From a virus, in IMG/VR virus record IMGVR_UViG_3300025583_000016, positions 1-51,655 of that record: 51,655 bases of DNA; one strand, 5' to 3'. The position numbers and the translations under genes were made by a program. Within the stretch, counting starts at the first letter, position 1. Every line of letters begins with the position of its first letter. Positions 3,208 to 29,302 of this stretch are shown here, piece by piece. The notes below the pieces were generated by a model. The model saw only the letters and a program-made list of their open reading frames with translations, was not told where the DNA came from and did not search any database.

Positions 3208-3987
3208 TTAGCTGTGGACGAAGCGGAGAATGTCTGCCCGGATCTCGGATGGGAGGCGGGCCGCGCTGGCAGCGTTGTCGTGGCGCCTAGGCTTCGGCAC
3301 GGTGATCGGGCGGAGATTCAGGAACGAGAAGACGCCGTCCATGATGCCCTGGGGATCCCGCACGAGATCCTCGTACGTGATGTGGCACCAGGCCCCTTTC
3401 CCCAGCGACGCGGCCTCAAGGTGCATGAGCTCCACCGAACGCTTCCATTGCGCGGCCGCCATCAGGGCGGTGTACGACTCATAGCCGGCGGACCGTAGCT
3501 GGGCGAGTGCACCACCTCGCGGCTTGGCACGGCGGAGAATCCCTTCGACGACGGGGATTGGGTCTCTGCTTATCCCCACGAAGCGGGCCCCGGGGAAGTT
3601 GGCGCTGAGCCAGCCCATCCTGGGGACGTTCGAGACTGACTTTTCGACGAGGATCCCCCCCCGGCAGATCCATGGCATCCAATCGGCCATGAGGCGCTCG
3701 GCGATGAGAGGCTGAGACCTGGCAACCTTTCGGACGTAGGCTTCGCATTGCCACCACATGCGCACCCATCCCAGATCCTCGGGCCTTGTGAGCACCTCGG
3801 AGAACCTCGCGCCTTCCCATGGGATCATGCAGGTATCGGGATGGCGGCCTATCAGCTTGCGGAGCAAGGTGGTCCCGCTGTTGTAGCAGCCGACCACGAA
3901 GACGGGCCTGTAGGGCTGCAGCGCTGGGAACGCATAGGTAATGCGCCTGACCCGTGGGTTGGTCCAGGCTCTGAGCAGCAGCTTCAT
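3208..3987 (-). CDS. PAPS-dependent sulfotransferase (late region)
   Basis: A 259-residue protein. Residues 33-41 (GCYNSGTTL) form the 5'-phosphosulfate loop, and [11 protein letters not shown] in the second half fits the 3'-phosphate-binding segment. Such enzymes move sulfate from PAPS to a hydroxyl or amino group of a glycan, lipid or protein. The ATG at 3987 overlaps the stop of the deacetylase gene (ATGA), so the two are translated together and may act on the same glycan. It is a second, clearly diverged sulfotransferase in this genome (the other is at 22204). The natural acceptor is unknown. Confidence 0.85.
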
Positions 3988-13036: not shown

Positions 13037-13454
13037 AGTAGTCGATGTCCCAGGCCGTGCCGTCCACCTTCCGGATCCTGATCGCGAGCTCCATCACGTT
13101 CGGGTACTGGGAATCGCGGCTCGGGCTGATCTCCTCACCCGCCGCGGGGCTGTCCAGCCACACCTCGAACGACTCCGATTCGTCGGCGTCCGGATACCAC
13201 GTGAGCGTCTCGCTCAACTGGCCCCAGGTCAGCATGGCGAGGAGCTCGGGCCACTCGGATGCCCAGAACCTCAGCGTGAGCGAGAGCACCGCATCGCGCC
13301 TGACCACGTACGAGGCCGGCACGCCGGCGCCGCTCTTCCTCATGCCCCCTACGGTGGGCGAGAGCATCGTCCACGGTCTGGGGGGCAGCGTCATGCTCCA
13401 GTCGGTCCGGATGCTCGCCCCATACACCCAACGGGAGCGCTTCGGGAGGCTCAT
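13029..13454 (-). CDS. small tail-tip protein
   Basis: A 141-residue protein directly after the tape measure (ATGA overlap) and before the adhesin. It is Trp- and Tyr-rich with a basic N-terminus and an acidic middle; FWASEWPELLAMLTW suggests a compact beta domain. Position and size fit a distal-tail or minor tail protein. I cannot name a family from sequence alone. Confidence 0.6.
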   Translation of the reverse strand: MSLPKRSRWVYGASIRTDWSMTLPPRPWTMLSPTVGGMRKSGAGVPASYVVRRDAVLSLTLRFWASEWPELLAMLTWGQLSETLTWYPDADESESFEVWLDSPAAGEEISPSRDSQYPNVMELAIRIRKVDGTAWDIDYYG

Positions 13455-15712
13455 GGATTGTTCCTCGTGCGATGGATGCGGACGCGGGTGTTGGGGCCCG
13501 CCCGCTCTTCATGCAGCTGCGTCGCGCCGGCCACGACACGCTGGACCCTCGGGTTCACGGCATCGAACCCCGGCCCCTCGAAGAAGACGTTGAGCTCCGA
13601 GCCGATCGGATTCGAGGCGGCAGAGAGGGGTCCGCCGATGTCTCCCGGCGCGCCTGGAGGCGCCCCAGACGCGCCTCCGGCCGTCGGGGCGCTGAACCCC
13701 CCGGTCGCGCCGGCGAGAGCGGCCCAGCCGGCAGCGATGCCGGTCAGTTGGGCAGCCGCGGCGTAGTGTCCGGCCGCCTGAGCGGCCGTCAGAGGGTTCA
13801 ACGTGGCGATCAGCCCCATGACGGCCTGCTCAGCGGCCAGCAGGGCGGCCTGCTTCGCCTTGCCGGCTGCCAGCTGCCCGATCCCCGCCCCGAACGCTGC
13901 GTTGAGGATCTCGGAGGCCGTCTGCGCCACGCCGGCCATCTGCTCTTGGGCCTGCGCGCTCAGGTCGGCCTCGCGCTGCACGGTTCGGAGGCTCTTGGCC
14001 AGATCCTGCAGCCTGGCGTCCTGCGGATCGAGGCCGGCGGCCACGAGATCCTGCATCGCGGTCGTGAGGATCGAGACCCTCTGCCCTGCCTGATCGTACG
14101 AGCTCCCCAGGAGCTCGGCGAACGTGGCGTTCTGCGCGAGCGCCTGATTCATCTTCGTGGTCGCGTCGGCCACGGGGTCCTCGGTATCGCCGGCGACCTT
14201 CTTCAGATCGTCCTGCAGCTTCTGGGCGGCGGCGACGGTGGCCCGGTTGTACGTCTCCTCGGTGATCCGCTTGGCCTGGAGGTGGGCGGCGAGCCGCCGG
14301 ATCTCCTCGTCATACACCTCCTGCGGCGTCTTCACGGATTCACGGATCCTGGCGGCCTCGTCGGCCAGCGCCTTCGCGGCGGCTTCCGCATCGCCCTGCT
14401 TCGTCGGGGGACCCTGCGCCTCCTGACGGACATCGAACTGGGCTTTCACCTTCTCGCTCGGGGCCGTGGTCTTGGCGACGCTTTCGCCCGCCTTGTCGGC
14501 CTCCGCCTTCAGGTCGTCGAGCAGTTGAGTGACGTTGCGAAGCTTCGCCTCCGCTTTGCTGGTGTCGAACCCGAACGTGCCTTTGATGGCGATCCAGGCC
14601 TTCAACGCGGCCTGCTCGACCTCGTAGAAGGTTCGGATCCCCGTCTCGACACTGTCTTCCCAGCCCTTCACCATGCCATCGATGGCACGGATCAGAAGCC
14701 GGACGGTGCCGGCCACCACGCTCACGGCAGGGGCCAGTCTGCCCTTCAGGTCGTTCGCGGCGGTCTTCAGACTGTCGGTGGTCGTGCGGCTGCGCTCCTC
14801 GGTGTCGGCCAGCGCTCCGTCCGCATTGCGCAATGCCTCCGTGAGATCGTCGATCGCGAAGACACCGGCCCGGATGTCGATGGCCATCTTCGCACCGGCC
14901 CGGCTTCCGAACGCCTCTGCGGCGATGCTACCGGCCGCCAGGTCGCTCGGCGCCGCTTTGATCCGGCGGACGAACTCCTCGAACGCCGCCGTCCCGTCGG
15001 TGAAGCCCTCCCGGGCGAGGTTCGTGAACACCCGGTTCATGCCCGCGGCGGCTTCCGTCGTCTTGATGCCTCGCCGCTCGAACTCGCTGAACAGGGCGAT
15101 CTGTTGGTTCAGACTGAAGCCCAGCTGCGCGAGCGTCGGCCCGGTTTCCAGCAGCCGCTCGGCGAGCTCCGTCACGCTGGCCCCCGTCGCCTGGCCGGCC
15201 ACGGTCAGCCGGTCCATGAGCGGCACCGCGGCATCGGCACTCAGCCCGTACCGGTTCAGCAGCTGGCCGACGGTGAGGGTGGCGTTCGCCACATTCACGT
15301 CGTTCGCCCGGGCGAAGTCGAGTGCAGACTTCGTAATCACCCGGAGCGGCTCATCGGTGACGTGGAGCAGGGTGTTGAGGTTACCCACCGCTGTGGCCAC
15401 CTCGCCCATGGACTCGGGCACGCTGCGGAACACGGCCGTCGTATCCCGCTTCAGCGTGCGGAGCAGTTGACCGGACGCGCCTGTCAGCCGGATCAGGGTG
15501 CGCCTGGACTCCTCGACGTCATTGATGAACTTGCCGATGGCGCGCACGCTGAACGCGGCGATCAGGTACGCGCCGATCCGCTTCGCCGATTCGACGAGGC
15601 GGTTCATCCCCTTGTCGATCTTCCCCAGGGAGTCCTTCGCGCCTTGCTCCGTCTGCTTCGCAGCGCGGCGGTCCAGCACCATCTGAACAAGCTGTTGGAT
15701 CGGCTTCAGCAT
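13451..15712 (-). CDS. tail tape measure protein
   Basis: A 753-residue protein. The first about 330 residues match the TP901/PhageMin-type tape-measure core, with long amphipathic helices and segments such as TLTVGQLLNRYGLSADAA and AFGSRAGAKMA. The middle holds coiled-coil-like helices (LRNVTQLLDDLKAEAD) and around residues 610-690 there are Ala/Gly-rich hydrophobic stretches. The protein sets tail length and is ejected with DNA. At about 0.15 nm per residue, this would correspond to a tail of roughly 110 nm. GGAG precedes the ATG. Confidence 0.9.
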   Translation of the reverse strand: MLKPIQQLVQMVLDRRAAKQTEQGAKDSLGKIDKGMNRLVESAKRIGAYLIAAFSVRAIGKFINDVEESRRTLIRLTGASGQLLRTLKRDTTAVFRSVPESMGEVATAVGNLNTLLHVTDEPLRVITKSALDFARANDVNVANATLTVGQLLNRYGLSADAAVPLMDRLTVAGQATGASVTELAERLLETGPTLAQLGFSLNQQIALFSEFERRGIKTTEAAAGMNRVFTNLAREGFTDGTAAFEEFVRRIKAAPSDLAAGSIAAEAFGSRAGAKMAIDIRAGVFAIDDLTEALRNADGALADTEERSRTTTDSLKTAANDLKGRLAPAVSVVAGTVRLLIRAIDGMVKGWEDSVETGIRTFYEVEQAALKAWIAIKGTFGFDTSKAEAKLRNVTQLLDDLKAEADKAGESVAKTTAPSEKVKAQFDVRQEAQGPPTKQGDAEAAAKALADEAARIRESVKTPQEVYDEEIRRLAAHLQAKRITEETYNRATVAAAQKLQDDLKKVAGDTEDPVADATTKMNQALAQNATFAELLGSSYDQAGQRVSILTTAMQDLVAAGLDPQDARLQDLAKSLRTVQREADLSAQAQEQMAGVAQTASEILNAAFGAGIGQLAAGKAKQAALLAAEQAVMGLIATLNPLTAAQAAGHYAAAAQLTGIAAGWAALAGATGGFSAPTAGGASGAPPGAPGDIGGPLSAASNPIGSELNVFFEGPGFDAVNPRVQRVVAGATQLHEERAGPNTRVRIHRTRNNP

Positions 15713-15716
15713 GGGC

Positions 15717-15986
15717 CTACGCTCCTCTTTGCACGTCCTTGCGCCACTTCATGTAGTCGTTCCGCGTGAATGATGCGGCGCGCGTAGCGGCTGCGAGATG
15801 AAGCTGGTCCCTGGCCTTCGCTCGGTTGAGATGCGCCATGCCGTAGGAGTAATGGCGCCACGACAGCGGGAAGCCATCGGGGCCGACCCACGTCGGCAGG
15901 GCCTGGACGAACGTGGCCAGGTCATCGATCAGGTCCGGGGCGCCGGTCGAACGGCCTCGATGCCGAGGGACCTCGTCCGGCGCCCC
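15717..15986 (-). CDS. tail assembly chaperone, -1 frameshift extension
   Basis: The frame one base behind the upstream chaperone is open from before 15986 to a TAG at 15717 and reads as good protein (PDLIDDLATFVQALPTW, HYSYGMAHLNRAKARDQL), but it has no start of its own. In the zero frame the last 18 codons are Arg-rich and unlike protein. A -1 slip on GGGG at 15983-15986 (codons TCG GGG CGC) would fuse the two into a product of about 230 residues. This is the lambda gpG/gpGT arrangement, conserved in siphovirus tails, and it lies exactly between the major tail protein and the tape measure. Confidence 0.75.
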   Translation of the reverse strand, partial: GAPDEVPRHRGRSTGAPDLIDDLATFVQALPTWVGPDGFPLSWRHYSYGMAHLNRAKARDQLHLAAATRAASFTRNDYMKWRKDVQRGA

Positions 15987-16411
15987 GATACAAAACGCGC
16001 GAGCTCGATCACGTCGGCGTCGGTGGCGTCCTTCAGGGGATTGAAGAACCCGACCCGGAACAGCAGCCTCCGGATCGGGGAGCCCCCGGAGCGCAGTCGC
16101 CTCCGGAGCAGGCCGGCGAGCTCGTGGATCGCGTCTCGATAGGGCGGGAGGTTCTCCAGCGTGAGCTCGGGGCCGATGGCGTTGACGCGCAGGTACGCGT
16201 CGAGGATGCGAGCGCCTTCATGATAGGGAACGGGCGGCACGCCGTACTGCCTGCCACGGAACAGGATGTAGACGGTCTCGTTCAGGTCGAGGACCGCCTG
16301 AAGGTTCCGCGGTGGCGGCTGACTCTGACGGTCCAGACTGGCGAGCGGCCGGGGATCGGCCGCCCGCCAGCGCCGCTTCATCTCCCTCTGCTCGATAGGG
16401 AAGATCCGCAT
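15929..16411 (-). CDS. tail assembly chaperone (gpG-like, zero frame)
   Basis: A 160-residue protein. The ATG at 16411 shares a base with the stop of the major tail protein gene (TGATG). It is helical, with LNETVYILFRGRQYGVP and DADVIELARFVSG. Chaperones of this kind coat the tape measure during tail growth. The zero-frame tail after residue about 143 is probably biologically short-lived sequence read only when no frameshift occurs. Assignment rests on position and the overlapping -1 frame. Confidence 0.75.
   Translation of the reverse strand: MRIFPIEQREMKRRWRAADPRPLASLDRQSQPPPRNLQAVLDLNETVYILFRGRQYGVPPVPYHEGARILDAYLRVNAIGPELTLENLPPYRDAIHELAGLLRRRLRSGGSPIRRLLFRVGFFNPLKDATDADVIELARFVSGRRTRSLGIEAVRPAPRT
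15983..15986 (-). other. candidate -1 slippery site (GGGG)
   Basis: In the zero frame the bases are TCG GGG CGC. The tRNA on GGG can re-pair after a one-base backward slip because a G precedes... the run is four Gs when counted on the minus strand, immediately before the frame where the downstream protein-like sequence begins. A TTTT run a few bases upstream (plus-strand 15992-15995) is the alternative. Confidence 0.45.
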
Positions 16412-17100
16412 CAGCTGCCGCCTTCGATGTCGATGGCGTAGTCCGCCGGATCACCGATGGTGAACAACCGCTGCCCCTCGGGCAGATCCGGATGGATCGT
16501 GGCGTGGCAGCTGACGGTCACGATGTTCTTGCCGTCGTCGCCATGGCCGCCGAGGAACGAGGACTCAGGCCGATCGAAGTACGCCCTCCAGATCCAAATC
16601 GCCCGACCCAGCAGCGTCTGGTGCGCATCGTCGAGAGCCGCGCCGTTCAGCGTCCAGTCGCCACCACTGAAGCTCAGCGTCTGATACTCGTTCGCGGCGT
16701 CGCGGAAGAGCGTCTCGGGGAACACCACGATGGTGCGCTTCTCCGTGTCGCGCACCCGGAGATAGCCGCCGCCGGCCTGGCCCACGGGCGACACGATGGT
16801 GAGCAGATCCGGATCCGCCAGGAACAGCGGGATGTCCAGCTGCGGATTGTCGCCCGTCGAGATGGCTTCGTGGATCGCGTCGCCGCTGAGCTCCGGCAAC
16901 GTGAGCGTCGCGACGCTGCCCTGCGGGTTGAACGAGATGTCCCCCTCGGTATCGCCCAGCTGCGCCAGGCGGAGCGGAGAAGCTGCGTCCCAGACGGTCG
17001 GGTCGCCCACGGCCTCGTCGGTCCCGTCGTGTGCATACCAGACCGTGCCGCGGCCGATCTGCCGGAGAACGTCCTGCAGATTGATGAGATTGAAGTCCAT
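16411..17100 (-). CDS. major tail protein (tail tube)
   Basis: A 229-residue, acidic, beta-rich protein located between the tail terminator and the chaperones, the invariant place of the tail tube protein. It contains PQGSVATLTLPELSGDAIHE and a C-terminal half rich in short strands. A very strong ribosome site (AAGGAGGT, 6 bases from the ATG) fits a protein needed in many copies. Six-fold rings of such proteins stack to form the siphovirus tail tube. Confidence 0.85.
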   Translation of the reverse strand: MDFNLINLQDVLRQIGRGTVWYAHDGTDEAVGDPTVWDAASPLRLAQLGDTEGDISFNPQGSVATLTLPELSGDAIHEAISTGDNPQLDIPLFLADPDLLTIVSPVGQAGGGYLRVRDTEKRTIVVFPETLFRDAANEYQTLSFSGGDWTLNGAALDDAHQTLLGRAIWIWRAYFDRPESSFLGGHGDDGKNIVTVSCHATIHPDLPEGQRLFTIGDPADYAIDIEGGS

Positions 17101-17120
17101 CGGTTACCTCCTTCGGGTTT

Positions 17121-17546
17121 TCAGGCTGATCGGCCTCGCTGGAGCGACTCCCTGATCGGAACGATACGGAAGCGTGTGGCGCGGCCGAAATAGTTGTTCC
17201 GATCTGGACCGAGCGCCGCGCCCAACTCGGCTCCGTCGGTGAAGTACGAGTAGCAGTAGACGCCTTCGATGGTCACCGGGCCATCGTGGTCGAACAGCCG
17301 CCTCAGCGCCCGCTCTCCCAGGGCGAGCTCCGACACGGTCTCACACCACTGGTCCGCCTGCACGATGCACGGCTCCCAGAGTTCGAGGTTGCCCTGATCG
17401 CTGATCACGTGGTACTGCAGCCCGGGGACCACCTGTTCTGTCCAGCCCGACGCGACCTTGATCGCGTCCGCGCCGTGGATCCCCACCAGGGTCTCGTCGG
17501 CCTTCGCCGCGCGGGCAAAGGCACGGAACACGTCGTCCCATCTCAT
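17121..17546 (-). CDS. tail terminator / tail completion protein
   Basis: A 141-residue product. The ATG at 17546 overlaps the stop of the gp10-like gene in an ATGA junction. It begins with a helix (WDDVFRAFARAAKAD) and continues as a beta-rich domain with a Tyr-rich segment (EGVYCYSYFTDG). Placement after the gp10-like protein and just before the tail tube fits the protein that caps the tail and joins it to the neck. Family assignment is by order and size. Confidence 0.7.
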   Translation of the reverse strand: MRWDDVFRAFARAAKADETLVGIHGADAIKVASGWTEQVVPGLQYHVISDQGNLELWEPCIVQADQWCETVSELALGERALRRLFDHDGPVTIEGVYCYSYFTDGAELGAALGPDRNNYFGRATRFRIVPIRESLQRGRSA

Positions 17547-18022
17547 GACAGCGCCCTCATGAAGATCACCTCGATCTGTGGCTCGACGCGTGCGGCCGTC
17601 GGGGCCATGTAGGGCCTCGGGGCGATGTAGACGCCTCGGCTGTCGGAGCCGCCGTACTCCATCCGCGGCGCATAGGCTCGCGAGATGTCTTGGTCCTGCG
17701 CGCTGCCACCCAGCCCGGGGCCGACGAGTGACCCGATCGACAGCCCGCTCCACTTCGGATCCGTGAACCCGACGGATCCACGTAAGTGATCGAACAGCAC
17801 GGCAGGCGGCTCGCCTGGCGCCGAGGCGATGTGGAGCTCGCCCGTCTTGGAAACCTTGTATGGCAGGCCGGATCTCCGGCCGCTCAGGGTGCGCTTGAGC
17901 TCGTTCGCATAGTGCAGGGCCGCGTCGAACACCGCGCGCTCTGCCTTCGGTCTGAGCAGGGCCAGCAGCCTGCGATCGAGCCCCTTGATGCCTTCCCATC
18001 GGGTGGTCTTGAACTTGATCAC
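17543..18022 (-). CDS. HK97 gp10-like neck protein
   Basis: A 159-residue protein starting at a GTG in a GTGA overlap with the preceding stop. The pattern of an early helix with LLALLRPKAERAVFDAALHYANELKRTL, a central GELHIASAPGEPP segment and a C-terminal YMAPTAARVEPQI is that of HK97-gp10-type neck proteins, which connect the head-tail stopper to the tail terminator. Confidence 0.75.
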   Translation of the reverse strand: MIKFKTTRWEGIKGLDRRLLALLRPKAERAVFDAALHYANELKRTLSGRRSGLPYKVSKTGELHIASAPGEPPAVLFDHLRGSVGFTDPKWSGLSIGSLVGPGLGGSAQDQDISRAYAPRMEYGGSDSRGVYIAPRPYMAPTAARVEPQIEVIFMRALS

Positions 18023-18384
18023 GACGCGTCCTCGATGCTGGGCAGCTTGCCGTTCCACTCATCCCCCTCGACCTCCAGATGGTGGCCGCGGAACGGATCG
18101 AAGCTGCGCACCTCGACGACGAACGGGGCCGTGGGCCCCTCGTAGACCTCGATCAGATCGCGGCGCTGGAGCTCGGGGCCGATGTCGAAGTAGAGCGTCC
18201 GACCTCCGCTCGGCTGGGTGCCCTGACTTGTCGGGGAGAGTACGGTCGCCATGCCATCGCTCGCGCACGCCAGGTTGTTGTACGCCAGGGCGTAGTCGGG
18301 CACCACAGCGCCGAACTCATCCTGGGTCGCCTCGCTTCTGCGCCAGACGGCAGCTTTGTGATCGAGCAGATGGGCGATGCTCAT
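18019..18384 (-). CDS. head-tail stopper (head closure) protein
   Basis: A 121-residue, mostly beta protein: LDHKAAVWRRSEATQDEFG at the start and DLIEVYEGPTAPFVVEVRSFDP later fit the small SPP1 gp16/HK97-type head closure proteins. ATGA overlap with the connector gene upstream. It would seal the portal ring after packaging and provide the tail docking surface. Confidence 0.75.
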   Translation of the reverse strand: MSIAHLLDHKAAVWRRSEATQDEFGAVVPDYALAYNNLACASDGMATVLSPTSQGTQPSGGRTLYFDIGPELQRRDLIEVYEGPTAPFVVEVRSFDPFRGHHLEVEGDEWNGKLPSIEDAS

Positions 18385-18917
18385 GCGCGCCCTCGCTTCC
18401 AGTGGTTCATGACGTCCGTCCAGCTGGCGGCTGCCGTCACGTCACCGAGCGAGTAGCTGTACCTGCCCAGCGACTCGGACACCACGTTGCTCTGGGTCGG
18501 CTCGTTCCACTTCCGCTTCACGAGATCGAGCACCAGCTGCTCGACGTCGCCCGGGATCTCCTCGAAGCCCTCCTGATAGACGAACCGATAGTTGCGCACG
18601 CCAGGCCACCACGCGCCGGCACAGACGACCTTCCTCCCGTCCACCTCGAAGTCATCCGCATCGACCTCGGTCCATGCGTATCCGATGGCGGTGCGGTAGT
18701 AGACGGTGACGTCATCGTCGATCGGCGGCTGGCGGAGGAACAGCGTCGTGCGGCCGTTGCCGTTCAGGATCTCCTCGGCGTCCCGCGGCTCCCCGAAGTA
18801 CCAGTCGAGCGCGCGCTGCACGGCATCGAGCGCCCTGGCGATCAGCGCCTCCAGCACATCGTCCCTGTCGTCCGTCGTCTTCCGGAGCCAGGCCTTTACC
18901 GAATCGAGATCAAGCAT
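18381..18917 (-). CDS. head-tail adaptor (gp6/gp15-like connector)
   Basis: A 178-residue protein with an N-terminal helical part (VKAWLRKTTDDRDDVLEALI) typical of gp6-type connectors, a beta middle and a C-terminal part ending in SWTDVMNHWKRGRA. It overlaps the preceding double glycosyltransferase gene by 8 bases, so an enzyme gene is translationally joined to a structural gene here. The adaptor binds below the portal. Confidence 0.75.
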   Translation of the reverse strand: MLDLDSVKAWLRKTTDDRDDVLEALIARALDAVQRALDWYFGEPRDAEEILNGNGRTTLFLRQPPIDDDVTVYYRTAIGYAWTEVDADDFEVDGRKVVCAGAWWPGVRNYRFVYQEGFEEIPGDVEQLVLDLVKRKWNEPTQSNVVSESLGRYSYSLGDVTAAASWTDVMNHWKRGRA

Positions 18918-20649
18918 AGTCGCTTCGCGTCAGGTTAGGCGCAGCGCCCGGGTCCACGGTTTCTGGCGCCCGGTTTGCGCGTTCGCGGGTCTTCCGGCCC
19001 GCCAGGGCGAGACGTCGAGCGCGGTAGTCGGTGCGCCTTGCCCGCTCGTCTCTCTCGATGGCGGCCATCTGCAGCTTGCCGCCGCGGGTGGGGGCAACGG
19101 GCGGGTCGCTCATGGCCAGCAACCGCCTGGCATGCTCGATCGTGGCCTTGAACGTGGCGCCTCGCTGCAGTTGCCTTGTGCCGATCTCGAACGACCGAAG
19201 CGCGACCAGGCTCACCCGGTTGTCGAGCCGCCGGGGCCGTCCGTCCGTCCTACCCTCTCGCCATCCTTCCAGCAGGTCCCAGAGCTCGTCCGGCTCCCCT
19301 TCGAGCTCCGCGATGGCTCGATACAGCCGCCTATTGGTCTGGTACCGATCATGGCTCAGCCGGCGCAGCTGGGGATGGTAGAGGTGGATCAGATCGTGAC
19401 CGAGCCGGACACGCTGCCCGGGTACCAGCGTATCGAGGATCACCGACAGCGCCTCGTCCTCGGCACCCCAGCCCTTGAACACCGACGGGATCCCCCCGGA
19501 CGCCTCGTACTTCGAGCGCTCGATCACCAGCATGCCGCCGCCCGGATAGCCCTCGTACGCGGCACGCTGCAGGCCCAGCCCGGTGAAGTCCCTCCGGCCA
19601 AATGGACCGGCCATGACCTCGGCGGTCGCAGCCTCGTCGAGCCGGTTGACCTTGCCGTGCGGGATGACCCAGCTGACCTCCGGGTTCGTCTCGACGATGG
19701 CCACGCTGTCTCGCAACGCCTTCGCGCTCACGAAGCAGTCTGCGTCGGCGATGACCAACGTCCACCCGCTGGCCTGCTCGATCGCCCTGGCGACGGCGAC
19801 ACCTTTCCGCCAGTGCGCATCGGGGCACGTGCCCACGACGACCTCGAACCAAGGATGCAGCGCAGCATAGCGGCGTCGTATCCAGTCCCAGGCCCGGTCG
19901 CGCGGGCCATTGTCCGGCCGCCAGGGCACGATGACGCTGACCCCCTGATGCCCGGAGCGGATGGAGTGCAGCTTCCTGCCGACGATGACGGTGCGGCGGC
20001 GGCTGACACGCCGTGTGTTGAAGATCGAGTCACCGTGCTGCCGGTAGTAGAAGACCGGCCTCTTCGTGGCGACGAACCGCGCCGGAGGATCGAGGTGGGA
20101 GAAGCCGAGCCACAGGGCCGTATCCCAACCGCCCGGCATGTCCTCTCGATAGGGCCGCTGCTCCCAGAGCGCCTTGCGGAACGGGCTCACGCCGCTGGCC
20201 GGCGCCTTGCTCTTCCGGGTCTGCTCGCCCTGGGTGTTGGAGTACACGCGTCGGCGCGCTCTTGGCCCGGCCGCGAGATTGCCGCTCCGCTCATAGCCTG
20301 CGGCGATCACGTCGGCCTCGTCCGCATATCGCTCGAACTCCTCGATCATGTGCGGCATGGCCTGGTCGTCGCAATCGAAGTGCTGCACCCACTCGGTGTC
20401 GGCGAGCTCGACGGCCGCGTTCCTTCCCCGGCCGATGTTCTGCGTCTCGATCCTCCGGGTCAGCACCCTGAACCCCGCTGCTTCGAGCTTCGCAGCTGCA
20501 CGCTCGATCAGCCTGGGCGAGTCGTCCGTGCTGCCGGCGTCCACGATCCCCACCATGGACGGCCTGCGGGTCATCGCGATCAGCGACGTCGCCCAGTCGT
20601 CCAGATAGCGACCGTAGTTCCGGCAGCACGTGACGATCCCCAGGTCCAT
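18910..20649 (-). CDS. tandem double GT2 glycosyltransferase
   Basis: A 579-residue protein. Domain 1 (1 to about 215) has the GT-A start GIVTCCRNYGRYL, DAGSTDDSP and an acidic HFDCDD motif for metal-nucleotide sugar binding. Domain 2 (about 235-430) begins GVSVIVPWRPDNGPR and has IADADC, then GWGAEDE, as in GT2 enzymes that elongate glycans. The C-terminal 120 residues are helical and basic. Two catalytic domains in one chain can add two different sugars. The gene shares a base with the methyltransferase gene upstream (TGATG). The acceptor is unknown; particle or host-surface glycan is inferred. Confidence 0.85.
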   Translation of the reverse strand: MDLGIVTCCRNYGRYLDDWATSLIAMTRRPSMVGIVDAGSTDDSPRLIERAAAKLEAAGFRVLTRRIETQNIGRGRNAAVELADTEWVQHFDCDDQAMPHMIEEFERYADEADVIAAGYERSGNLAAGPRARRRVYSNTQGEQTRKSKAPASGVSPFRKALWEQRPYREDMPGGWDTALWLGFSHLDPPARFVATKRPVFYYRQHGDSIFNTRRVSRRRTVIVGRKLHSIRSGHQGVSVIVPWRPDNGPRDRAWDWIRRRYAALHPWFEVVVGTCPDAHWRKGVAVARAIEQASGWTLVIADADCFVSAKALRDSVAIVETNPEVSWVIPHGKVNRLDEAATAEVMAGPFGRRDFTGLGLQRAAYEGYPGGGMLVIERSKYEASGGIPSVFKGWGAEDEALSVILDTLVPGQRVRLGHDLIHLYHPQLRRLSHDRYQTNRRLYRAIAELEGEPDELWDLLEGWREGRTDGRPRRLDNRVSLVALRSFEIGTRQLQRGATFKATIEHARRLLAMSDPPVAPTRGGKLQMAAIERDERARRTDYRARRLALAGRKTRERANRAPETVDPGAAPNLTRSDYA

Positions 20650-21395
20650 CAGCCGTTCTCGTCGCTCCGGAACCCGAAGGCCTGGTCAGGCTCCCGGGTC
20701 TCGGTGGGCTCGGCTTCGGGCTCGGCCTCGGGCTCGGCCTCGGGCTCGGCCTCGGGCTCCGGCTCTGCTTCGGGCTCGGGCTCGGGCTCGGGATCGGCGG
20801 GCTCCACGGGGGGCCGGTCCTCGTCCTCGCGGACGAGCAGGGCGCACCAGTGGTGTCCCTCGTCCTCCATCACCACGATGCGGCAGCCCAGCGCATCGGC
20901 GACGGCCTCGGGGGGTCGCGGGAACATGTGGGCCGCGGTGCCCTCGCGGTCATCGATCACGAGCATCTTGGCCCCGGGCGCCAGGACGCGTCGGAGCTCG
21001 GAGGCCCAGACGAGCCAGTCGGCGTCCGGCGTGTGCTGGATCACCCACAGCGCCACGGCGCCATCGAACGATGCGTCCTCGAACGGCAGGGCATCGTCCT
21101 TCAGGAGCACATACCGGCCGTTGCTCGGCGGGTCGCCGGCGTACTGCAGCCCGGTGGGAGAGATGTCCACGCCCACGTACTCCATGGCGCGGCCGGCGAG
21201 GAGCGCGGACCAGCGGCCCGATCCGCAACCGAAGTCCAGCACCCGCACGATCTCGTCGGGGAACAGCATCGATACCAGGGGCTCGAACCGCCGGTAGTTA
21301 TCGTCGGTCGCGGCAGGGTCGCCGAGATAGCCCACGTACGTGCTGCCCTGCTTCTGTGCTCGACGCTCCCAGTAGCGCCTCGGCTCGTACTTCAT
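20649..21395 (-). CDS. class I SAM methyltransferase with Glu-Pro repeat tail
   Basis: A 248-residue protein. VLDFGCGSGRW near residue 65 is the SAM-binding motif I, YVGVDIS follows as motif II, and ALWVIQHTPDAD and LRRVLAPGAKMLVID complete a small-molecule/glycan-type methyltransferase. The last about 50 residues are almost only Glu, Pro and Ala, encoded by 6- and 12-base repeats. The ATG at 21395 overlaps the GT9-like stop (ATGA). Set among glycosyltransferases, methylation of a sugar is the likeliest role. Confidence 0.85.
   Translation of the reverse strand: MKYEPRRYWERRAQKQGSTYVGYLGDPAATDDNYRRFEPLVSMLFPDEIVRVLDFGCGSGRWSALLAGRAMEYVGVDISPTGLQYAGDPPSNGRYVLLKDDALPFEDASFDGAVALWVIQHTPDADWLVWASELRRVLAPGAKMLVIDDREGTAAHMFPRPPEAVADALGCRIVVMEDEGHHWCALLVREDEDRPPVEPADPEPEPEPEAEPEPEAEPEAEPEAEPEAEPTETREPDQAFGFRSDENG
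20708..20792. repeat. Glu-Pro/Ala coding tandem repeat in methyltransferase tail
   Basis: About 14 units of the hexamer GGCTCG or GGCCTC (plus strand) repeat in frame and encode alternating acidic and Pro/Ala residues. The run length is prone to slippage, so it may differ between related phages. It likely forms an extended linker rather than a folded domain. Confidence 0.8.
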
Positions 21396-22207
21396 TTGCA
21401 AAGCTCCTCGGCGCGCTGCACCACAGCCGCCGGATGGCGCCAACCATCCTCCATGAGCTCGATCAGAGAACCGGTGTGGTTGGCTCGGTTGTAGTATTCG
21501 TCCATGCGGATATGCCACATAGGCTGCGGCTTGCGCATGGACGCCCGTTGGAAGGTGCCGGGTGCGGCCTTGCCGTCCTCGGCCCCGATGAGCAGCAGCG
21601 GCGTGCCACACAGCACGGCGAGGTGGGCCAGGCCCGCGTCCGTCGAGACCACCAGCTTCGCCTGGCGCATCGCCTCGATGCACGCGTCCAGCGTGCGCTC
21701 GTAATCCCAGGCCTTCTCGTCCGCCGCCACCTCATACGACGCCGCCTGTGCTCCGGCGGCGAAGACCCTCAACCCCGCGGCCCGAAGGCCCGTGGCCACG
21801 TGGGGCCAGGCATCCCAGTTCCGCTCGACCCCGACCTTCCGCTTCCTCGGCGCCACGATCACGTCCGGTGCCGGCGCATCGCCCCGCTGAGCGACGAACG
21901 GCTCCGGGACGAACCTGCGCTCCGCCCTGTCCTCTGCCCGATCGTCAGGCATGACGAGGGTGGCGCCAGGGTGGTCCTTCATGAGCTTCGCCTTCCAGTC
22001 GCTCACGAACGCGTCGTCCAGGGCATACGTCCAGCCGCGCCTCGGGTCGGGCCTCTTCGGCACGATGACCCGTTGGCAGTCGGGGTACAGCGCCTCGTAT
22101 CCCCGCTCGTGCGCCACGGTCACCGGTCGATCGAGTGCATAGACGGCCGGCACGTGGAACCGGATCATGATGCCGAGCTCGCCGCGGAAGGGTGGGACGA
22201 TGTTCAC
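21392..22207 (-). CDS. GT9-like glycosyltransferase
   Basis: A 271-residue protein starting at a GTG in a GTGA overlap. The C-terminal half carries VVSTDAGLAHLAVLCGTP and LLIGAED, the donor-binding signature of heptosyltransferase-like GT9 enzymes; the N-terminal half is shorter than in cellular GT9 proteins. The family transfers heptose or related sugars in lipopolysaccharide cores. The sequence resembles phage-encoded relatives rather than a complete bacterial WaaF. Its substrate cannot be predicted. Confidence 0.7.
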   Translation of the reverse strand: MNIVPPFRGELGIMIRFHVPAVYALDRPVTVAHERGYEALYPDCQRVIVPKRPDPRRGWTYALDDAFVSDWKAKLMKDHPGATLVMPDDRAEDRAERRFVPEPFVAQRGDAPAPDVIVAPRKRKVGVERNWDAWPHVATGLRAAGLRVFAAGAQAASYEVAADEKAWDYERTLDACIEAMRQAKLVVSTDAGLAHLAVLCGTPLLLIGAEDGKAAPGTFQRASMRKPQPMWHIRMDEYYNRANHTGSLIELMEDGWRHPAAVVQRAEELCK

Positions 22208-22767
22208 GCGGCCTCCACCTCCCAGCGCTCGCCGGCCGCGCTGACCTTCGCGATCAGGCTGGCGTACGTCTTCCTGATCCTGCTCCGCTCGTTGGGCTGG
22301 AGCTTGTAGTGCATCCTCGCACGCCACGGGAGCCACCAGATCGGCCGCCCGATGAACGACGAGATGGCCGACCGGCACTCTGCGCAGCCAAGCTGCTCGT
22401 ATCGAAGAGCGAGGGTCGGGATGGGGGGATCGGACGTCCAGCTGTCCCACAGCGCCTCGTAGTGGAGCACGTCGGCGTCGTAGAGATCCTCGGCCGGGGG
22501 CCAGTCGGCTCCGCAGTTGGCGAAGTGATTCGCCTCGAACCTGTTCAGCCGGGTGCTGACGACGCAGTCCACCACATCGCCGAACAGGAACAGGGCCCGC
22601 GCGTTCTCGGGGAGCTCGACGTCGGGCCAGGGCCTATGGACCTTCGTGATTCCGAAGGTCGAGGCCACGTGGGGGGGCGTGTACGGGCCTTCCTGCAGCC
22701 CGCAGATGGAGCGGAGCAGATACGTCGAGCCAGAGCGCGGGATCGAGGCCAGGACGAGCGGGATCAC
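22204..22767 (-). CDS. sulfotransferase (head-operon copy)
   Basis: A 187-residue, compact sulfotransferase starting at a GTG that overlaps the previous stop (GTGA). IPRSGSTYLLRSI at residues 9-21 is the PAPS 5'-phosphosulfate loop; LFLFGDVVDCVVSTR is the 3'-phosphate strand and helix. It is shorter than the copy at 3208 and clearly a different lineage. Together with the next three genes it forms a compact glycan-modifying block inside the structural operon. Confidence 0.8.
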   Translation of the reverse strand: MIPLVLASIPRSGSTYLLRSICGLQEGPYTPPHVASTFGITKVHRPWPDVELPENARALFLFGDVVDCVVSTRLNRFEANHFANCGADWPPAEDLYDADVLHYEALWDSWTSDPPIPTLALRYEQLGCAECRSAISSFIGRPIWWLPWRARMHYKLQPNERSRIRKTYASLIAKVSAAGERWEVEAA

Positions 22768-23249
22768 GAGGCGGGCTTCTCCTCTTCATCGTCGCCCGGA
22801 CCATCTTCGGCCTGGGGGGCCTCTTCCTCACCCTCACCCGTGGCGTCTTCCATGGGGTCGCCGTCGGTCCCCTCGGACTCGTCCACGAACTCGAACCCCG
22901 CTCCCTCCTCCCAAGTGGGGTCCACTTGGGGATCCTCCTCGCCCTCGGCCTTGTCCTGCTGGCCCTCGGCGCGGAGCATCTTGTCCTGCTGCTCGGTGGC
23001 GGCCCGCGACTTCACGCGCCGAAGGTCGGCCTCCTCGCCAATGACGGCGGCTCGCTGTTCCTTCGCGGCGGCCTTCCGGTTCGCCTCTTGGAAGCGCTGG
23101 CGCCGCTTCCTCCGGTCCTCGACGATCGCCTGCTGGAGCTCGGCCGGGCTCATGTCGCGGAACCGTCGCTCCTCTTCGATCGCCTTGGCGTTGTCCGCCT
23201 GGTGCCTGGCACGCTCCCGCGCGCGGCGCTTCTTGGGGTCTTCGGGCAT
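22764..23249 (-). CDS. charged coiled-coil protein after the capsid gene
   Basis: A 161-residue protein. The first about 100 residues are a Lys/Arg/Glu/Ala-rich helix likely to form a coiled coil (RKRRQRFQEANRKAAAKEQ); the last about 60 are strongly acidic. AAGGGAG precedes the ATG. It follows the major capsid gene where a decoration or minor head protein may lie, but its composition is like a scaffold or a nucleic-acid-binding adaptor. I cannot decide between these. Confidence 0.7.
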   Translation of the reverse strand: MPEDPKKRRARERARHQADNAKAIEEERRFRDMSPAELQQAIVEDRRKRRQRFQEANRKAAAKEQRAAVIGEEADLRRVKSRAATEQQDKMLRAEGQQDKAEGEEDPQVDPTWEEGAGFEFVDESEGTDGDPMEDATGEGEEEAPQAEDGPGDDEEEKPAS

Positions 23250-23305: not shown

Positions 23306-23370
23306 CACTCAGCGCGGGGTGACGGGAATCAGGCCGGCCATCCGACGACCTGACCCCGCCACCCCGGCTC

Positions 23371-23480
23371 GTCGCCTGGGATCAGGATCCCGCAGCGACG
23401 GTCTCGAACTTCGCGAACGCGGCGGGTCGCCTGGGATCAGGATCCCGCAGCGACGGTCTCGAACTTCGCGAACGCGGCGG
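23371..23480. repeat. exact 55-bp tandem duplication at the capsid gene 3' end
   Basis: The 55 bases from 23371 recur without change from 23426. The second copy codes the last 14 residues and stop of the major capsid protein; the first copy lies after the stop, out of frame because 55 is not a multiple of three. It carries a GGGATC/GATCCC inverted repeat. An exact duplication this long is either very recent or an assembly artefact. Confidence 0.9.
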
Positions 23481-24834
23481 GCGCGTAGATCGGCAGGGCG
23501 ATCCGCTCTTCGGCCAGGATCGTCCGCATGTTCTTGATGAACTGATCGTTCACCAGGCCGATCTGCACGGTCAGCTGCATGCGATCGAGCAGCTGGGCGC
23601 CCATCTGGAAATCGCCGACGAGGATGTTGCGGGCCCCCGTCGAGCGGGACGCGGCACCGACGGCCTCGACCACGCGCACGCCCCAGATCCTCGACCCGTT
23701 GTTGTCGGTGATCACGACCCAGACGTAGCGGTCGTCCGTGCCCTTGGTGAGCACGATGGTCTCCCAGTCGTACGGGTGCAGCACGACGGCGTTGGCCTCG
23801 TACCCGCTGACCATGACGTCGGTGATCCCCATCCGGACCACGTCGATCAGGGTGTGGTCGGCGGCGCTGTACCGCCCGTTCAGGGCGATGTCGTTCGTCC
23901 CCGACACCACGAGCAGGCCTTCGAGGTTCGGCGCGGTGCCGTCGCCGTACAGCACCTGCTCCTCCTCGGTGCGGCTCACCGAATACCGCAGCCGGCCGTC
24001 GATCAGGCTCCGCAGCTGGGCCCAGTCATCCAGCTGCTGGTTCTGCACCGGCATCCAGCCCGCGATCGTGCGGACGGGAGTCTGCTGCAGGGAGTACGTG
24101 ACGTCCTCTTCCGGCTTCGCGACGCCCGCGGCCGTGGGGGCCGCCAGGTTGGAAGCCGAGTCCTGCCGCACGTACTCCACGGACCCCGCACCGGTCTGCC
24201 CGGTGTTGATGACGTCGCGGATCCTCAGCCGCTCGTCGGCGCTCACCTGGGGGATCCGGGCGAGCCGCTCGGGCTCGATGACCCCGGTCCCGATGGAAGG
24301 AACCGACTTGGCCTGCTTCGACTGCGCGAACCGGTCGTACATCTTCCGGCCCTCGCGGCTCAGAGGCACCAGCGGCTGACCGTTGGGCCCCACGAGCGCG
24401 TTCTTTCCGTTCAGCGCGCACGCCAGCTGCACGGTGGCGCTGTGCCCCGTCGCGAACTCGCTGGCAGCGAACTTCTGGAAGGCCTCGCTCATGATCACCG
24501 CGTCGCCGATCGAGATGTAACCGGCGACGTCACGGCTGTCCCGATCGTACTTCGAGGTACCACGGCCACCGGGAGTCGGAAGCGTGGGCTCCGGCACCTC
24601 GCGCATCTGGCGCTGCCGGGCCTCCACCTCGCGCCACTTGGACTCGGCCTCGATGTCCGCCTGGAGCTCGGCGCCCTCTTCACAGAGGCGCTCGAACGTC
24701 TGACGGTCCTCGGGATCCCACCGACGCTTCTTCTTCGTCTCGGGATCCACCTCATCGTAGAAGTCCTGCAGCTTCTTCGCCTCGGCCATGATGGCTTCGA
24801 GGTCCTTCTGTCGATCTGCGACGGCGTCAGACAT
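23437..24834 (-). CDS. HK97-fold major capsid protein
   Basis: A 465-residue protein. Residues 1 to about 95 form a charged helical delta-like region (KKLQDFYDEVDPETKKKRR, RQRQMREVPEPTLP) expected to be removed by the protease. The mature part has the usual landmarks: E-loop region, QQTPVRTIAGWMPVQNQQ and DWAQLRSLIDGRL, GDGTAPNLEGLL, and VNDQFIKNMRTILAEERIA near the end. The start overlaps the protease gene by 8 bases. It assembles the icosahedral shell. Confidence 0.92.
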   Translation of the reverse strand: MSDAVADRQKDLEAIMAEAKKLQDFYDEVDPETKKKRRWDPEDRQTFERLCEEGAELQADIEAESKWREVEARQRQMREVPEPTLPTPGGRGTSKYDRDSRDVAGYISIGDAVIMSEAFQKFAASEFATGHSATVQLACALNGKNALVGPNGQPLVPLSREGRKMYDRFAQSKQAKSVPSIGTGVIEPERLARIPQVSADERLRIRDVINTGQTGAGSVEYVRQDSASNLAAPTAAGVAKPEEDVTYSLQQTPVRTIAGWMPVQNQQLDDWAQLRSLIDGRLRYSVSRTEEEQVLYGDGTAPNLEGLLVVSGTNDIALNGRYSAADHTLIDVVRMGITDVMVSGYEANAVVLHPYDWETIVLTKGTDDRYVWVVITDNNGSRIWGVRVVEAVGAASRSTGARNILVGDFQMGAQLLDRMQLTVQIGLVNDQFIKNMRTILAEERIALPIYAPAAFAKFETVAAGS

Positions 24835-25654
24835 TGGTCAACGCTCCTCTGTGTGTGGTACGGAAGTCCAGCTGACGCAACCGCAGCTGGTCGAACTTGG
24901 ATCGATCGGGCGCGTTGGGATCCCCGTCGGGATCTTCGTAGGGGGCCGCGCCACCGCCCTTGTTCGCGGGCTCTCCCCCATCGTCCTTCGTCTCGCGCTT
25001 GCGGGACTTCGGGTCCGGGTCGCACTTCCCGTCCTCGCATCGCTGAATCGCCCCGCGCAGGACGTCCTTCATGGCGTCCTTCACCTCGGACGGCGCCTGG
25101 CCTGCGAAGCGTTCGAGCACCGTGAGCTCGTGGGTGAGCAGCGACTTCACGGTATCCGGATCGGTCATGGCCATGGGGTTCGCGGGGAACCGCACCAGCG
25201 AGACCTCGTTGAGCCTGATCTTCGACAGGTACCGGATCTCCTGCCCGGTATCCGGATCCTCGGCGTAGCGCCAGTCGAGCGCATTGTAGCCGATGGACAT
25301 GCGATCGATGAACGGCCCGCCGTTTTCGGTGCTGAGCAGCTGCAGCACCTCATCGCCCTTTGGTCCGGGGATGACCTTCCACTTCGTCCACAGGCCGCTG
25401 TCCCGCTCCTCGATATCGATCAGCTTGCCGATCGTGTCGAAGATGCTGAACCAGCTGTGGCTGTCGAGCAGGGGCAGGATGTCCCCGCTCTTCTTCCAGT
25501 CCCGGATCGTCTGCTTGAACGAGCCGGGCTCGATCACGTCCCACTGGAGATCGAGATCGTACGTGGCGGCTAGGCCCTCGAACGTGCGGGTGTCGAGGTC
25601 GAGTGCCTTCACCTCCATCCTTCGGATCAGCCGTTGCTTCGTCACCTGGGCCAT
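24827..25654 (-). CDS. HK97-type prohead protease (peptidase U35)
   Basis: A 275-residue protein. The expected catalytic residues are visible as H66 in LLDSHSW and S120 in DRMSIGY, followed by RLNEVSLVRFPANP. The enzyme cleaves capsid delta domains and itself during maturation. The C-terminal 80 residues are charged and probably a removable or scaffolding segment. I chose the ATG at 25654, 7 bases after GGAGG; a TTG one codon earlier is less likely. Confidence 0.92.
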   Translation of the reverse strand: MAQVTKQRLIRRMEVKALDLDTRTFEGLAATYDLDLQWDVIEPGSFKQTIRDWKKSGDILPLLDSHSWFSIFDTIGKLIDIEERDSGLWTKWKVIPGPKGDEVLQLLSTENGGPFIDRMSIGYNALDWRYAEDPDTGQEIRYLSKIRLNEVSLVRFPANPMAMTDPDTVKSLLTHELTVLERFAGQAPSEVKDAMKDVLRGAIQRCEDGKCDPDPKSRKRETKDDGGEPANKGGGAAPYEDPDGDPNAPDRSKFDQLRLRQLDFRTTHRGALTNV

Positions 25655-25663
25655 CAACGCCTC

Positions 25664-28000
25664 CTAGCGAAACTCGTAGAGCAGAGTGCACCGGCAGTTG
25701 GGCTCGCCCGGTGCGTCCAGACCGTTCGAGAACGTTTCGTCGAGAGGGATCCAGCCGTCCGCCTCGTTGTCCTCATGCTCGGGTCGCACGCGGTCATCGC
25801 CTGCCGTGAGCCACGACTTCATCGCCTTCTGCCCGGTGCGCTGAGCGAAGGCATCGACCTGCCGGAACTGCGCACCATTCCACGCCCGGGTCGTCTCGGT
25901 CCGCGCCGTCAACCTGGCTCGCGTCCGGTCGAAGGCCGGCAGATCGCGGAGCCTCTTCACCAGCTTCGAGATCGTGTCGCCGGCTTCGATCGAGGCCTGC
26001 ACCTCGGCCGCGACGGCCTCGCCTGTGGTCTTCCCCATCACGCCGGCCAGGAACACCGTCTCCTGCACGGCATAGTCGGTCAGCCCGGGCTGCAGCAACT
26101 GGAACGTCAGCCCCAGATCGCCGGCCACCGCGTGCACGGCGGAGCTCGCGGTGCTCATGACGAGCGGATAGGCGATCGCCCTCATGCGGGCCTGGCCGCG
26201 TGTGTTGAGCCACTCGTCCACGGCGCGCTTGAACTGCGCGACGAGCTTCGGATCGAGGGAGTCTGCCTTCACCTCGATCGGGCCCCGGGCAGCCTTGCCT
26301 ATCACATGCTCGGCGATGCCCGCGATCGTGTCGCGCTGCACGGCGAGCTCGTCTGCGATGGGGTTCTCCCATTGGTCGGTGGCCAGCTTCGTGCCGAGAT
26401 CGAACGAGTGCCAGACCCGGTCCTTGCGGAGCGAGCGCTGGCCTTTCGTCTCCAGGCGTTCGAGCCTCGCCGATGCCTGAGCGGCCTGGGCCGCCGCTGC
26501 CGCCTCATCCGCGGCGCTCGGCAGGTTCTGGTCGCCGGTGCCCCCGGCGCCCTGGTCAGAACCCGGTGCGCCCTGGTCGGTTTGGGCGTTCGGCTGCGAG
26601 TTGCCTGTGCCGGCGTCCTGGGCAAACGGGTTCTCGAAGCCGGTCGGCGGGACCTCGGGCTGGCTGTTGGCCGTGTCGAGCGCGCGGAGCTCCGGGATCT
26701 CATCCGCCCGCGGATCGTCCGACGGGTCCAGGCCCACGAGCTTCCGGCGCTCGTTGAGGCTGGCGATCTCGCTCTGGCCCTGAGCGACGGTGGTCATCTC
26801 CGCGATGTCGCTCTGCAGGGCGCGGATCTTCGAGGTGTCGAACCGGAGGAAGCGACTGTGGTTCTCCTCGGTCGGCCGACGTCCCGGGGCCGGCGGGGCC
26901 CACAGCAGCTGGCGGGTGATCGCCGTCTCGAACTCTCGCCATTCGGGCTCGATCGTGTCTTCGTACGCCATGCGCCGCGCCTCGGCCATCTGGGACCACG
27001 GCGCGTTCTCGATCCCGATCTGGTACTGCAGCACGACGGCGGGGATGCCGAAGACGGCGGCGACGACCGACTCGACCCTGGCCAGCACCTCGCTCGGCAC
27101 GAGATCCTTCAGCGAGAGACTGACCTTCGTGGCGCTCCCCCCACCCAACAGGGCCAGCGGCCCGCCCCGGTTCTCTCGATCGCCGTACTTCGCCAGGGCT
27201 TGCTTGAACTTCTCCCATTCGTCGGGATCGGGGTTCCACTTCGGATCGGCCTGGACGATGACGGAGGGGAACAGCGCGTTGCGCAGCACGTCGCGGGTGG
27301 AGGCCAGGGCCTGGGCGGAAAGGTTCAGCCACGAGAGCGCGACATCGACCCGGGACGTCCCGGTGTTCCACGCGAACGGGTCGAGCTCTTGGAAGAACAC
27401 GACCTCCTCGGGGAGCCTGGTTCGCCTGTCCCGGGCGACGAGGTCGGAGTCGAGGCGGAACAGGCCGTGCATCCTGCCATCGCGCTGCTCAACCGTGAAC
27501 TCGTCGCCGTGGAAGGGCATCAGCGCGCCGACGTTGCCTGCCCTGCCCAGATCCTTGACCCATACCGCCTGTCCCGTGACGTCGAGATAGGCCTTCGTCC
27601 TGGCGAGTAGCCTGCCCATGTCGAAGTCCGGGCTCGGATTGGCGAGGAGCTCGGCCAGCGGATGATCGGGCAGGTAGGTCTCGGCGCCCGACGTCGGGTC
27701 CTCCTCGACGACCATCAGCGACGGCTCGCTGAACTTCCGCATGCGGTAGCGGATCGCCACGTAGCAGTAGGCGGCTGCTGCGTAAGCGGTCTGACGGTTC
27801 ACCTCGCTGACATCGGAACCGAAGCCGCCCATCGGGCCCATCGGCCTGCCGCCGCCGGGCTGCAGGATGTTGCCGCCGCTGACGTTGACGAGGTTGATCC
27901 CCTTCCGGCCGTCCACCGCCAACTCGGGTCTTGTGGCCACGGCGTGGCCGTTGGCCGTTGGCCCTGTCAGCCAATCGGCGAGTCGCTCGCGTATGCCCAT
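25664..28000 (-). CDS. portal protein fused to MuF-like head morphogenesis domain
   Basis: A 778-residue protein. Residues 1 to about 430 are an HK97-type portal (QTAYAAAAYCYVAIRYRMRK, ALMPFHGDEFTVEQRDG, FGIPAVVLQYQ). Residues about 440-530 are a Gln/Gly/Asn/Ala-rich linker. Residues about 550-778 form a MuF-type minor capsid domain, ending in ARTETTRAWNGAQ, WLTAGDDRVRPEH and CRCTLLYEFR. Portal and MuF are usually separate neighbouring genes, so this is a fusion. A GAGGGGAG ribosome site supports the ATG at 28000. It forms the dodecameric DNA gate, with the MuF part probably inside the head. Confidence 0.88.
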   Translation of the reverse strand: MGIRERLADWLTGPTANGHAVATRPELAVDGRKGINLVNVSGGNILQPGGGRPMGPMGGFGSDVSEVNRQTAYAAAAYCYVAIRYRMRKFSEPSLMVVEEDPTSGAETYLPDHPLAELLANPSPDFDMGRLLARTKAYLDVTGQAVWVKDLGRAGNVGALMPFHGDEFTVEQRDGRMHGLFRLDSDLVARDRRTRLPEEVVFFQELDPFAWNTGTSRVDVALSWLNLSAQALASTRDVLRNALFPSVIVQADPKWNPDPDEWEKFKQALAKYGDRENRGGPLALLGGGSATKVSLSLKDLVPSEVLARVESVVAAVFGIPAVVLQYQIGIENAPWSQMAEARRMAYEDTIEPEWREFETAITRQLLWAPPAPGRRPTEENHSRFLRFDTSKIRALQSDIAEMTTVAQGQSEIASLNERRKLVGLDPSDDPRADEIPELRALDTANSQPEVPPTGFENPFAQDAGTGNSQPNAQTDQGAPGSDQGAGGTGDQNLPSAADEAAAAAQAAQASARLERLETKGQRSLRKDRVWHSFDLGTKLATDQWENPIADELAVQRDTIAGIAEHVIGKAARGPIEVKADSLDPKLVAQFKRAVDEWLNTRGQARMRAIAYPLVMSTASSAVHAVAGDLGLTFQLLQPGLTDYAVQETVFLAGVMGKTTGEAVAAEVQASIEAGDTISKLVKRLRDLPAFDRTRARLTARTETTRAWNGAQFRQVDAFAQRTGQKAMKSWLTAGDDRVRPEHEDNEADGWIPLDETFSNGLDAPGEPNCRCTLLYEFR

Positions 28001-28022
28001 GTAGCTCCCCTCGAACGCGAAA

Positions 28023-28067
28023 GGCCCCGGCATCGTGGGCGCACGTCGCCTCAACGATGCCGGGGCC
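28023..28067 (-). terminator. strong 14-bp-stem hairpin upstream of portal gene
   Basis: GGCCCCGGCATCGT pairs perfectly with ACGATGCCGGGGCC around a 17-base loop. On the minus strand it is followed by TTTCGC, then the portal ribosome site. It may terminate upstream transcripts or protect the processed 5' end of the portal message. Confidence 0.55.
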
Positions 28068-29090: not shown

Positions 29091-29302
29091 GGATCCTCCT
29101 CGGATGGCAGAGACGACGCTTCAGGTTCGAGGGGCGACGTCGTCTCGTTGTACGCCCTCACGCCCCCCTGGTGCAAACGTATGCGGATCTCGACGGATCC
29201 CCCCGTCGCCATGTGGCCGACGATGCGGGCCAGCGTGCGCATAGACTTCTCGGGCAGGTTCGGCAGCCCGCCAGCGTTGGGCAAGGTGCGCTCGTCCCTC
29301 AT
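29087..29302 (-). CDS. small unknown protein before terminase large subunit end
   Basis: A 71-residue product whose ATG overlaps the large terminase stop (ATGA). It starts with a basic helix (RTLARIVGHMA), then a short strand (VEIRIRLHQGG), then an acidic tail. Not recognised. Confidence 0.55.
   Translation of the reverse strand: MRDERTLPNAGGLPNLPEKSMRTLARIVGHMATGGSVEIRIRLHQGGVRAYNETTSPLEPEASSLPSEEDP

Follow-up and report, generated by a model that had tools for sequence, protein, structure and literature searches.

What are sugar-modifying enzymes doing among the structural genes of a phage? The question is raised by the IMG/VR virus record IMGVR_UViG_3300025583_000016, analysed here over its positions 1-51,655 (51,655 nucleotides, hereafter the window). 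Four enzyme open reading frames (ORFs) lie there on the minus strand at 18910-22767, between the gene of the major capsid protein (MCP), with a neighbouring acidic ORF, and the first head-tail connector. A previous reading of the same DNA (the original prediction) had placed four glycan-modifying enzymes at exactly these coordinates, without giving the strand. We consider, with a probability of about 60%, that by analogy the block is a soluble virion-glycan cassette of the kind carried by cluster J mycobacteriophages, extended with sulfotransferases. The phage may use it to cover its virions with a sugar which we infer to be sulfated.

The enzymes and their relatives in other phages

The gene closest to the connector (18910-20649, 579 aa, ATG start) is securely assigned by sequence to a double GT2 glycosyltransferase (GT), here called GT2x2. 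It matches PF00535 (E=9e-20), phrog_9549 (6e-43) and phrog_1721 (5e-12), with a phrog_9549-like N domain and a galactosyltransferase-like C domain. The DxDD, GGWDTALW, ADADC and GWGxED motifs of the two GT2 domains are invariant or nearly so across 6 phages. Used alone as query, GT2x2 led directly to the cluster J mycobacteriophages: its N domain is 38% identical to Redno2 gp17 (E=3e-40). A profile of the C domain of the family matches gp109 of phage Che8 (E=1e-16). Through these two GT families the proposal that the enzymes of this structural operon modify glycans, a virion glycan being the likeliest product, gained support. No relative of GT2x2 or of the MCP was found in ~85,000 prokaryote genomes, hence there is no prophage or host clue from this side.

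The next two genes are also securely assigned. By sequence, 20649-21395 (248 aa, ATG start) is predicted to encode a class I methyltransferase (MT) dependent on S-adenosylmethionine (SAM); it matches PF08241 (E=2e-16) and has many relatives in the PDB, D-glucose O-methyltransferase among them. The Glu-Pro tail noticed originally is real: this C-terminal Glu-Pro/Glu-Ala stretch spans residues ~190-237. ORF 21392-22207 (271 aa, GTG start) is classed from sequence and model as a GT9-type (heptosyltransferase-like) GT-B enzyme, its donor sugar being predicted by family only. It passes PF01075 narrowly (22.7 bits vs a cut-off of 22), matches TIGR02195 (E=2e-5) and gave a model of moderate quality (pLDDT 62), for which the best PDB folds in Foldseek were 1psw (WaaF, E=2e-5), TibC, WaaC and 3tov; TibC is a protein heptosyltransferase. 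Homologues in the related contigs L003 and L004 (see below) are 53-58% identical.

The fourth gene, 22204-22767 (187 aa, GTG start), is a probable minimal sulfotransferase (ST), judging from its motifs. The 5′-phosphosulfate loop (P-K/R-S-G-T/S-T) is present as PRSGSTYL at residues 10-17, and GDVVDCVVS followed by LALRYEQL..SFIG could be recognized further on by eye. The L004 homologue is 52% identical; both have a loop of the form PRSG(S/K)TYL and a RYE(Q/A)L..F(I/L)G motif towards the C-terminus, and a Ser is conserved between them. An AlphaFold model, made from two sequences, was unusable (pLDDT 35.5). A sub-threshold match of ST to PF18920 (DUF5671, 3e-4) was regarded as spurious.

A second sulfotransferase (ST2), unambiguous by sequence, is predicted at 3208-3987 on the minus strand (259 aa). 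It matches PF13469 with E=1e-24 and 88 bits for a cut-off of 27, nearly over the full length of the profile (1-212/216), and its PDB matches are tyrosylprotein sulfotransferases (~1e-5). ST2 is ATGA-coupled to the upstream gene (3984-4754, minus strand, 256 aa), which resembles polysaccharide deacetylases by pairwise tblastn similarity to plasmid genes, one of them annotated as such (E=3e-10); no deacetylase match was obtained in Pfam or NCBIfam. The three contexts inspected for its distant relatives were all archaeal or bacterial polysaccharide gene clusters. The pair lies beyond the tail genes, with a holin-like gene upstream of it, and recalls deacetylation followed by N-sulfation; we infer that it might serve the same glycan as the cassette. 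In the records of the other relatives, many of them fragments, neither ST2 (by PF13469) nor the deacetylase-like gene was matched, the PF13469 search being insensitive enough to miss also the ST of L004.

Searches with capsid and GT profiles gave ~10 related uncultured phages, mostly contig fragments, whose cassette genes were assigned partly by similarity or by eye. All eight that cover the full span from MCP to connector or head closure (L003, L004, L005, L006, L007, L008, L018 and L021) carry MT-like and/or GT genes there. Of the block, which it had been proposed to seek in other phages, ST, GT9 and GT2x2 are found in the same order and place in L004, and GT/methyltransferase cassettes recur in the relatives. 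L003 has an MT/GT9 fusion, a GT9 and GT2x2; L005 and L006 have an MT-like gene and GT2x2; L007 and L008 have a GT9-like gene and an MT, without GT2x2. A fusion of MT with a riboflavin-kinase-like domain, another MT, a DXD-type GT and GT2x2 make up the cassettes of L018 and L021, the latter displaced by one gene so that it falls between the connector and the head-closure gene; the same set is found in L002, whose contig ends inside GT2x2. The fused domain, a CTP-dependent riboflavin kinase (PF01982; L002:9014-9946, L021:4703-5665 and, by similarity, L018:4346-5278), is odd for a phage. In this family of uncultured phages the capsid-connector slot is a fast-changing 'glycan cartridge', as it is in the mycobacteriophages, in which the double GT core is conserved and the accessory enzymes are exchangeable.

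In the proposed mechanism, soluble cytosolic enzymes would use host nucleotide sugars, SAM and 3′-phosphoadenosine-5′-phosphosulfate. Before the particle is assembled, or while this happens, GT9 and the two GT2 domains would add two to three sugar residues to a freshly synthesized virion protein; MT would cap the glycan and ST, with ST2, would sulfate it. The product would shield the particle, or change its surface charge or adsorption. Hydropathy revealed no convincing transmembrane segment in the four enzymes, and none of the ORFs scanned was recognized as a lipid-carrier glycan gene.

The acceptor would be a protein of the capsid or of the neck and tail (e.g. the major tail protein). The latter is somewhat favoured because GT2x2 stays with the neck/tail genes through exchange of head and tail modules. 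It accompanies homologous neck/tail genes in six relatives (L003, L004, L005, L006, L018 and L021) and is absent from L007 and L008, in which capsids are 53-59% identical and tails unrelated (with weak similarity in the connector of L008). The L018 capsid has an identity of just 39%, yet GT2x2 reaches 52%, the tail genes 50% on average and the tail tube 56%. An E3-binding-like domain (PF02817) forms capsid- or connector-adjacent ORFs in L003, L004, L005, L007, L008, L018 and L021. In L004 and L006 it also occurs as a fusion, at the C-terminal end of GT2x2; the window is without it. Its use for docking on the virion is speculation. Together with the swap pattern, the domain provides testable hints to the modified virion protein. 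L018 also encodes a capsid-adjacent protein with a CBM_5_12 carbohydrate-binding module and Gly-X-X repeats (L018:2355-4015) and, after it, a protein that by eye is LamG-like; both are possible glycan-binding decorations in the cassette slot.

Genomic setting

The junctions read from the sequence are exactly those described in the original prediction. The acidic ORF and ST overlap by GTGA (22764-22767), ST and GT9 by GTGA (22204-22207), and GT9 and MT by ATGA (21392-21395). MT and GT2x2 meet at TGATG with base 20649 common to both, and GT2x2 and the connector share the eight bases ATGCTTGA (18910-18917). At the codon positions, the cassette has the same GC content as the structural genes around it (third position, 0.86-0.91); the four ORFs are therefore real, resident coding genes.

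On the upstream side lie the acidic ORF (22764-23249, 161 aa) and the HK97-fold MCP (23437-24834; PF05065, E=2e-41; phrog_10). Family searches including PHROGs gave no known domain or family for the acidic ORF, whose L002 homologue carries a Glu-Pro-rich tail. Further members of the head-tail operon are a protease (24827-25657), a portal-MuF protein (25664-28054) and a terminase (29299-30711). Downstream, the first connector (18381-18917; Phage_connect_1 PF05135, E=1e-7; phrog_442, 1e-25) is followed by head-closure, gp10-like, tail-terminator, tail-tube and tape-measure genes, some neck and tail names resting on position and on homology to relatives. All these genes are on the minus strand.

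High-level co-expression with the virion proteins, which had been deduced from this placement, was not supported. A long and strong GC-rich hairpin without a T-run directly follows the capsid gene (~23310-23370, minus strand; z -2.7 for the 187-nt intergenic region). Judged from its sequence, it is a possible attenuator between capsid and cassette, which could lower read-through. A promoter and terminator scan of 16-29.5 kb gave no excess over shuffled sequence. A tandem duplication with a 55-bp period affects the capsid gene at its 3′ end (23365-23484, minus strand), the second copy being non-coding; this is either a recent duplication or an assembly artefact.

A chimeric assembly, named originally as a way in which the block could prove illusory, was rejected. 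L014, an IMG/VR contig whose metagenome number differs, matches the window with 100% identity over 11913-20665, and ST, GT9 and GT2x2 recur in the same order and place in the unrelated contig L004; a chimera is unlikely for these two reasons. L014 stops 16 bases upstream of the GT2x2 start, beside the Glu-Pro repeat, and besides the window itself no identical contig spanning 20.67-23.3 kb was found.

Three further observations concern other parts of the window. At one end of the contig a MoxR-like ATPase gene (by eye; 1-693, minus strand) is cut off, and a DUF2201 metallopeptidase/VWA protein is encoded close to the other end (49538-51655, minus strand). Genes of these two kinds often occur as a pair, so that the contig could represent a near-complete genome in circularly permuted form. 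ARAGORN called a tRNA-Pro at 3085-3177 (plus strand), which overlaps GGGCCC-rich low-complexity repeats and is probably false.

Virion glycan or another product

Several observations weigh against a sulfated virion glycan. ST matches PF13469 with E=0.0084 and 16.8 bits for a curated cut-off of 27 (profile 124-195). The usual Arg of the 3′-phosphate site is absent from ST and from its L004 homologue, Ser being kept (by eye), and L004 is the only relative besides the window with a sulfotransferase in its cassette. The window cassette yielded no homologue of Che8 gp110 (profile E ~0.3). When L018 is omitted, GT2x2 follows the head genes more closely (r=0.91 vs 0.71), and its linkage to neck and tail could be physical hitchhiking, the GT adjoining the connector. 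The virion glycan is a prediction from the genes.

The points on ST bear on what 22204-22767 is. That it encodes some other P-loop-like or degenerate protein, the glycan being methylated but unsulfated, is a minority reading that we keep in view; it is compatible with a virion-glycan cassette. It would agree with the score below cut-off, with the missing Arg and with the Walker-A-like loop of the L004 homologue (PRSGKTYL), which itself has no PF13469 match. ST had no match in PHROGs, NCBIfam or the PDB, and hhalign with ST2 was not significant; single- and two-sequence profile searches of viral contigs returned only L004, and neither ST nor GT9 had a match in 50,697 phage records. Against this reading, a second PF13469 fragment (profile 1-17, at 22711-22761) is collinear with the first, the loop, the Ser and the C-terminal motif are kept in both proteins, and a clear sulfotransferase, ST2, is encoded in the same genome. 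Of the identities proposed originally, those of GT9, MT and GT2x2 thus stand as secure and that of ST as probable; sulfation by the gene in the block is weakened, and the better match lies elsewhere in the genome, at 3208-3987. Overall, we consider a sulfated glycan likely.

The target could also lie elsewhere than on the particle. Modification of the host envelope, e.g. for receptor masking or superinfection exclusion, appears rather unlikely to us. In its favour, GT2 and GT9 enzymes are common builders of envelope glycans, relatives of the deacetylase-like gene belong to surface polysaccharide clusters of bacteria and archaea, and the choice between viral and host targets was left open for cluster J (PMC3706429). 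Against it, every relative found has its cassette inside the head-neck block, the ORFs scanned showed no flippase, membrane enzyme or enzyme that primes a lipid carrier, and the GT2 domains have kin in mycobacteriophages reported to bear virion glycans. Hypermodification of phage DNA is very improbable. Phages do use GTs and methyltransferases on DNA, and a DNA methylase is encoded at 39777-41201; against it, the families are of glycan or protein type, their homologues lie in capsid-adjacent glycan islands, and no modified-base biosynthesis gene was recognized among the ORFs scanned. Nor do we find it at all likely, though less far-fetched than DNA, that the product is a sulfated glycosaminoglycan-like virion glycan. 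Here a chondroitin-synthase-type GT2x2 would build a chain or disaccharide, the deacetylase would expose amines, and two sulfotransferases and MT would finish a negatively charged coat of the head or the tail. In the PDB, GT2x2 is closest in sequence to 2z86/2z87, of the chondroitin synthase KfoC type. With KfoC it shares two GT2 catalytic domains in one chain; similarity is low.

Comparison with known systems

The virion-glycan cassette finds its closest counterpart in cluster J (Omegavirus: Omega, Thibault, Redno2). For these phages, a report of 2013 describes 8-10 genes in the capsid-connector slot, including GTs, a two-domain GT (Omega gp16) and methyltransferases, with accessory genes that vary within the cluster (PMC3706429). 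In Redno2, nine genes separate the capsid gene from the annotated head-tail connector, five of them for glycosyl-/galactosyltransferases and one for a methyltransferase, in the order MCP - GT - kinase - methyltransferase - GT (gp17) - GT - galactosyltransferase - ... - connectors. The window shares the position, several GTs, the SAM methyltransferase, the homology to gp17 and a two-domain GT, that of Omega being known by description. A Ser/Thr kinase and a zinc-protease-like gene are found in cluster J and not among the four genes of the window, which is not a strict requirement; conversely, no sulfotransferase is annotated there, whereas the window has ST and GT9.

The Che8 gp108-110 operon (cluster F1) provides the second parallel. 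A paper of 2025 names Che8 gp110 and Corndog gp38, with reference to Freeman et al. 2023, as essential for capsid glycosylation; the gene of gp109, matched by the GT2x2 C-domain profile, adjoins that of gp110. In DeadP (cluster F) a kinase, the methyltransferase-like gp102 and the gp103 GT occur together with a gp110 homologue. In contrast to the window, the Che8 operon is at the right genome end and not in the head operon, and the accessory enzymes differ. Sulfotransferases (Sulfotransfer_3) have been reported in marine and glacier-ice phages, with a function stated as unclear (PMC10580990, PMC8290583). The likeness lies in a sulfotransferase in a phage genome, of PF13469 in the marine ones; those were reported as auxiliary metabolic genes, not within a capsid-connector GT/methyltransferase cassette.

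The capsid-connector GT/methyltransferase cassette is thus a kind known since 2013, of which the ST and GT9 members are a variation. The original prediction knew of no such set at this position; the position, the GTs, the methyltransferase and the double GT have precedents in cluster J, and what stays new, as far as the literature could be searched, is the presence of ST and GT9 in such a cassette. Within the same limit, sulfation, if true, would decorate a phage particle in a way not reported before. Also new are the coupling of ST2 to a deacetylase-like gene and the occurrence of the E3-binding-like domain both as capsid-adjacent ORFs and fused to a GT.

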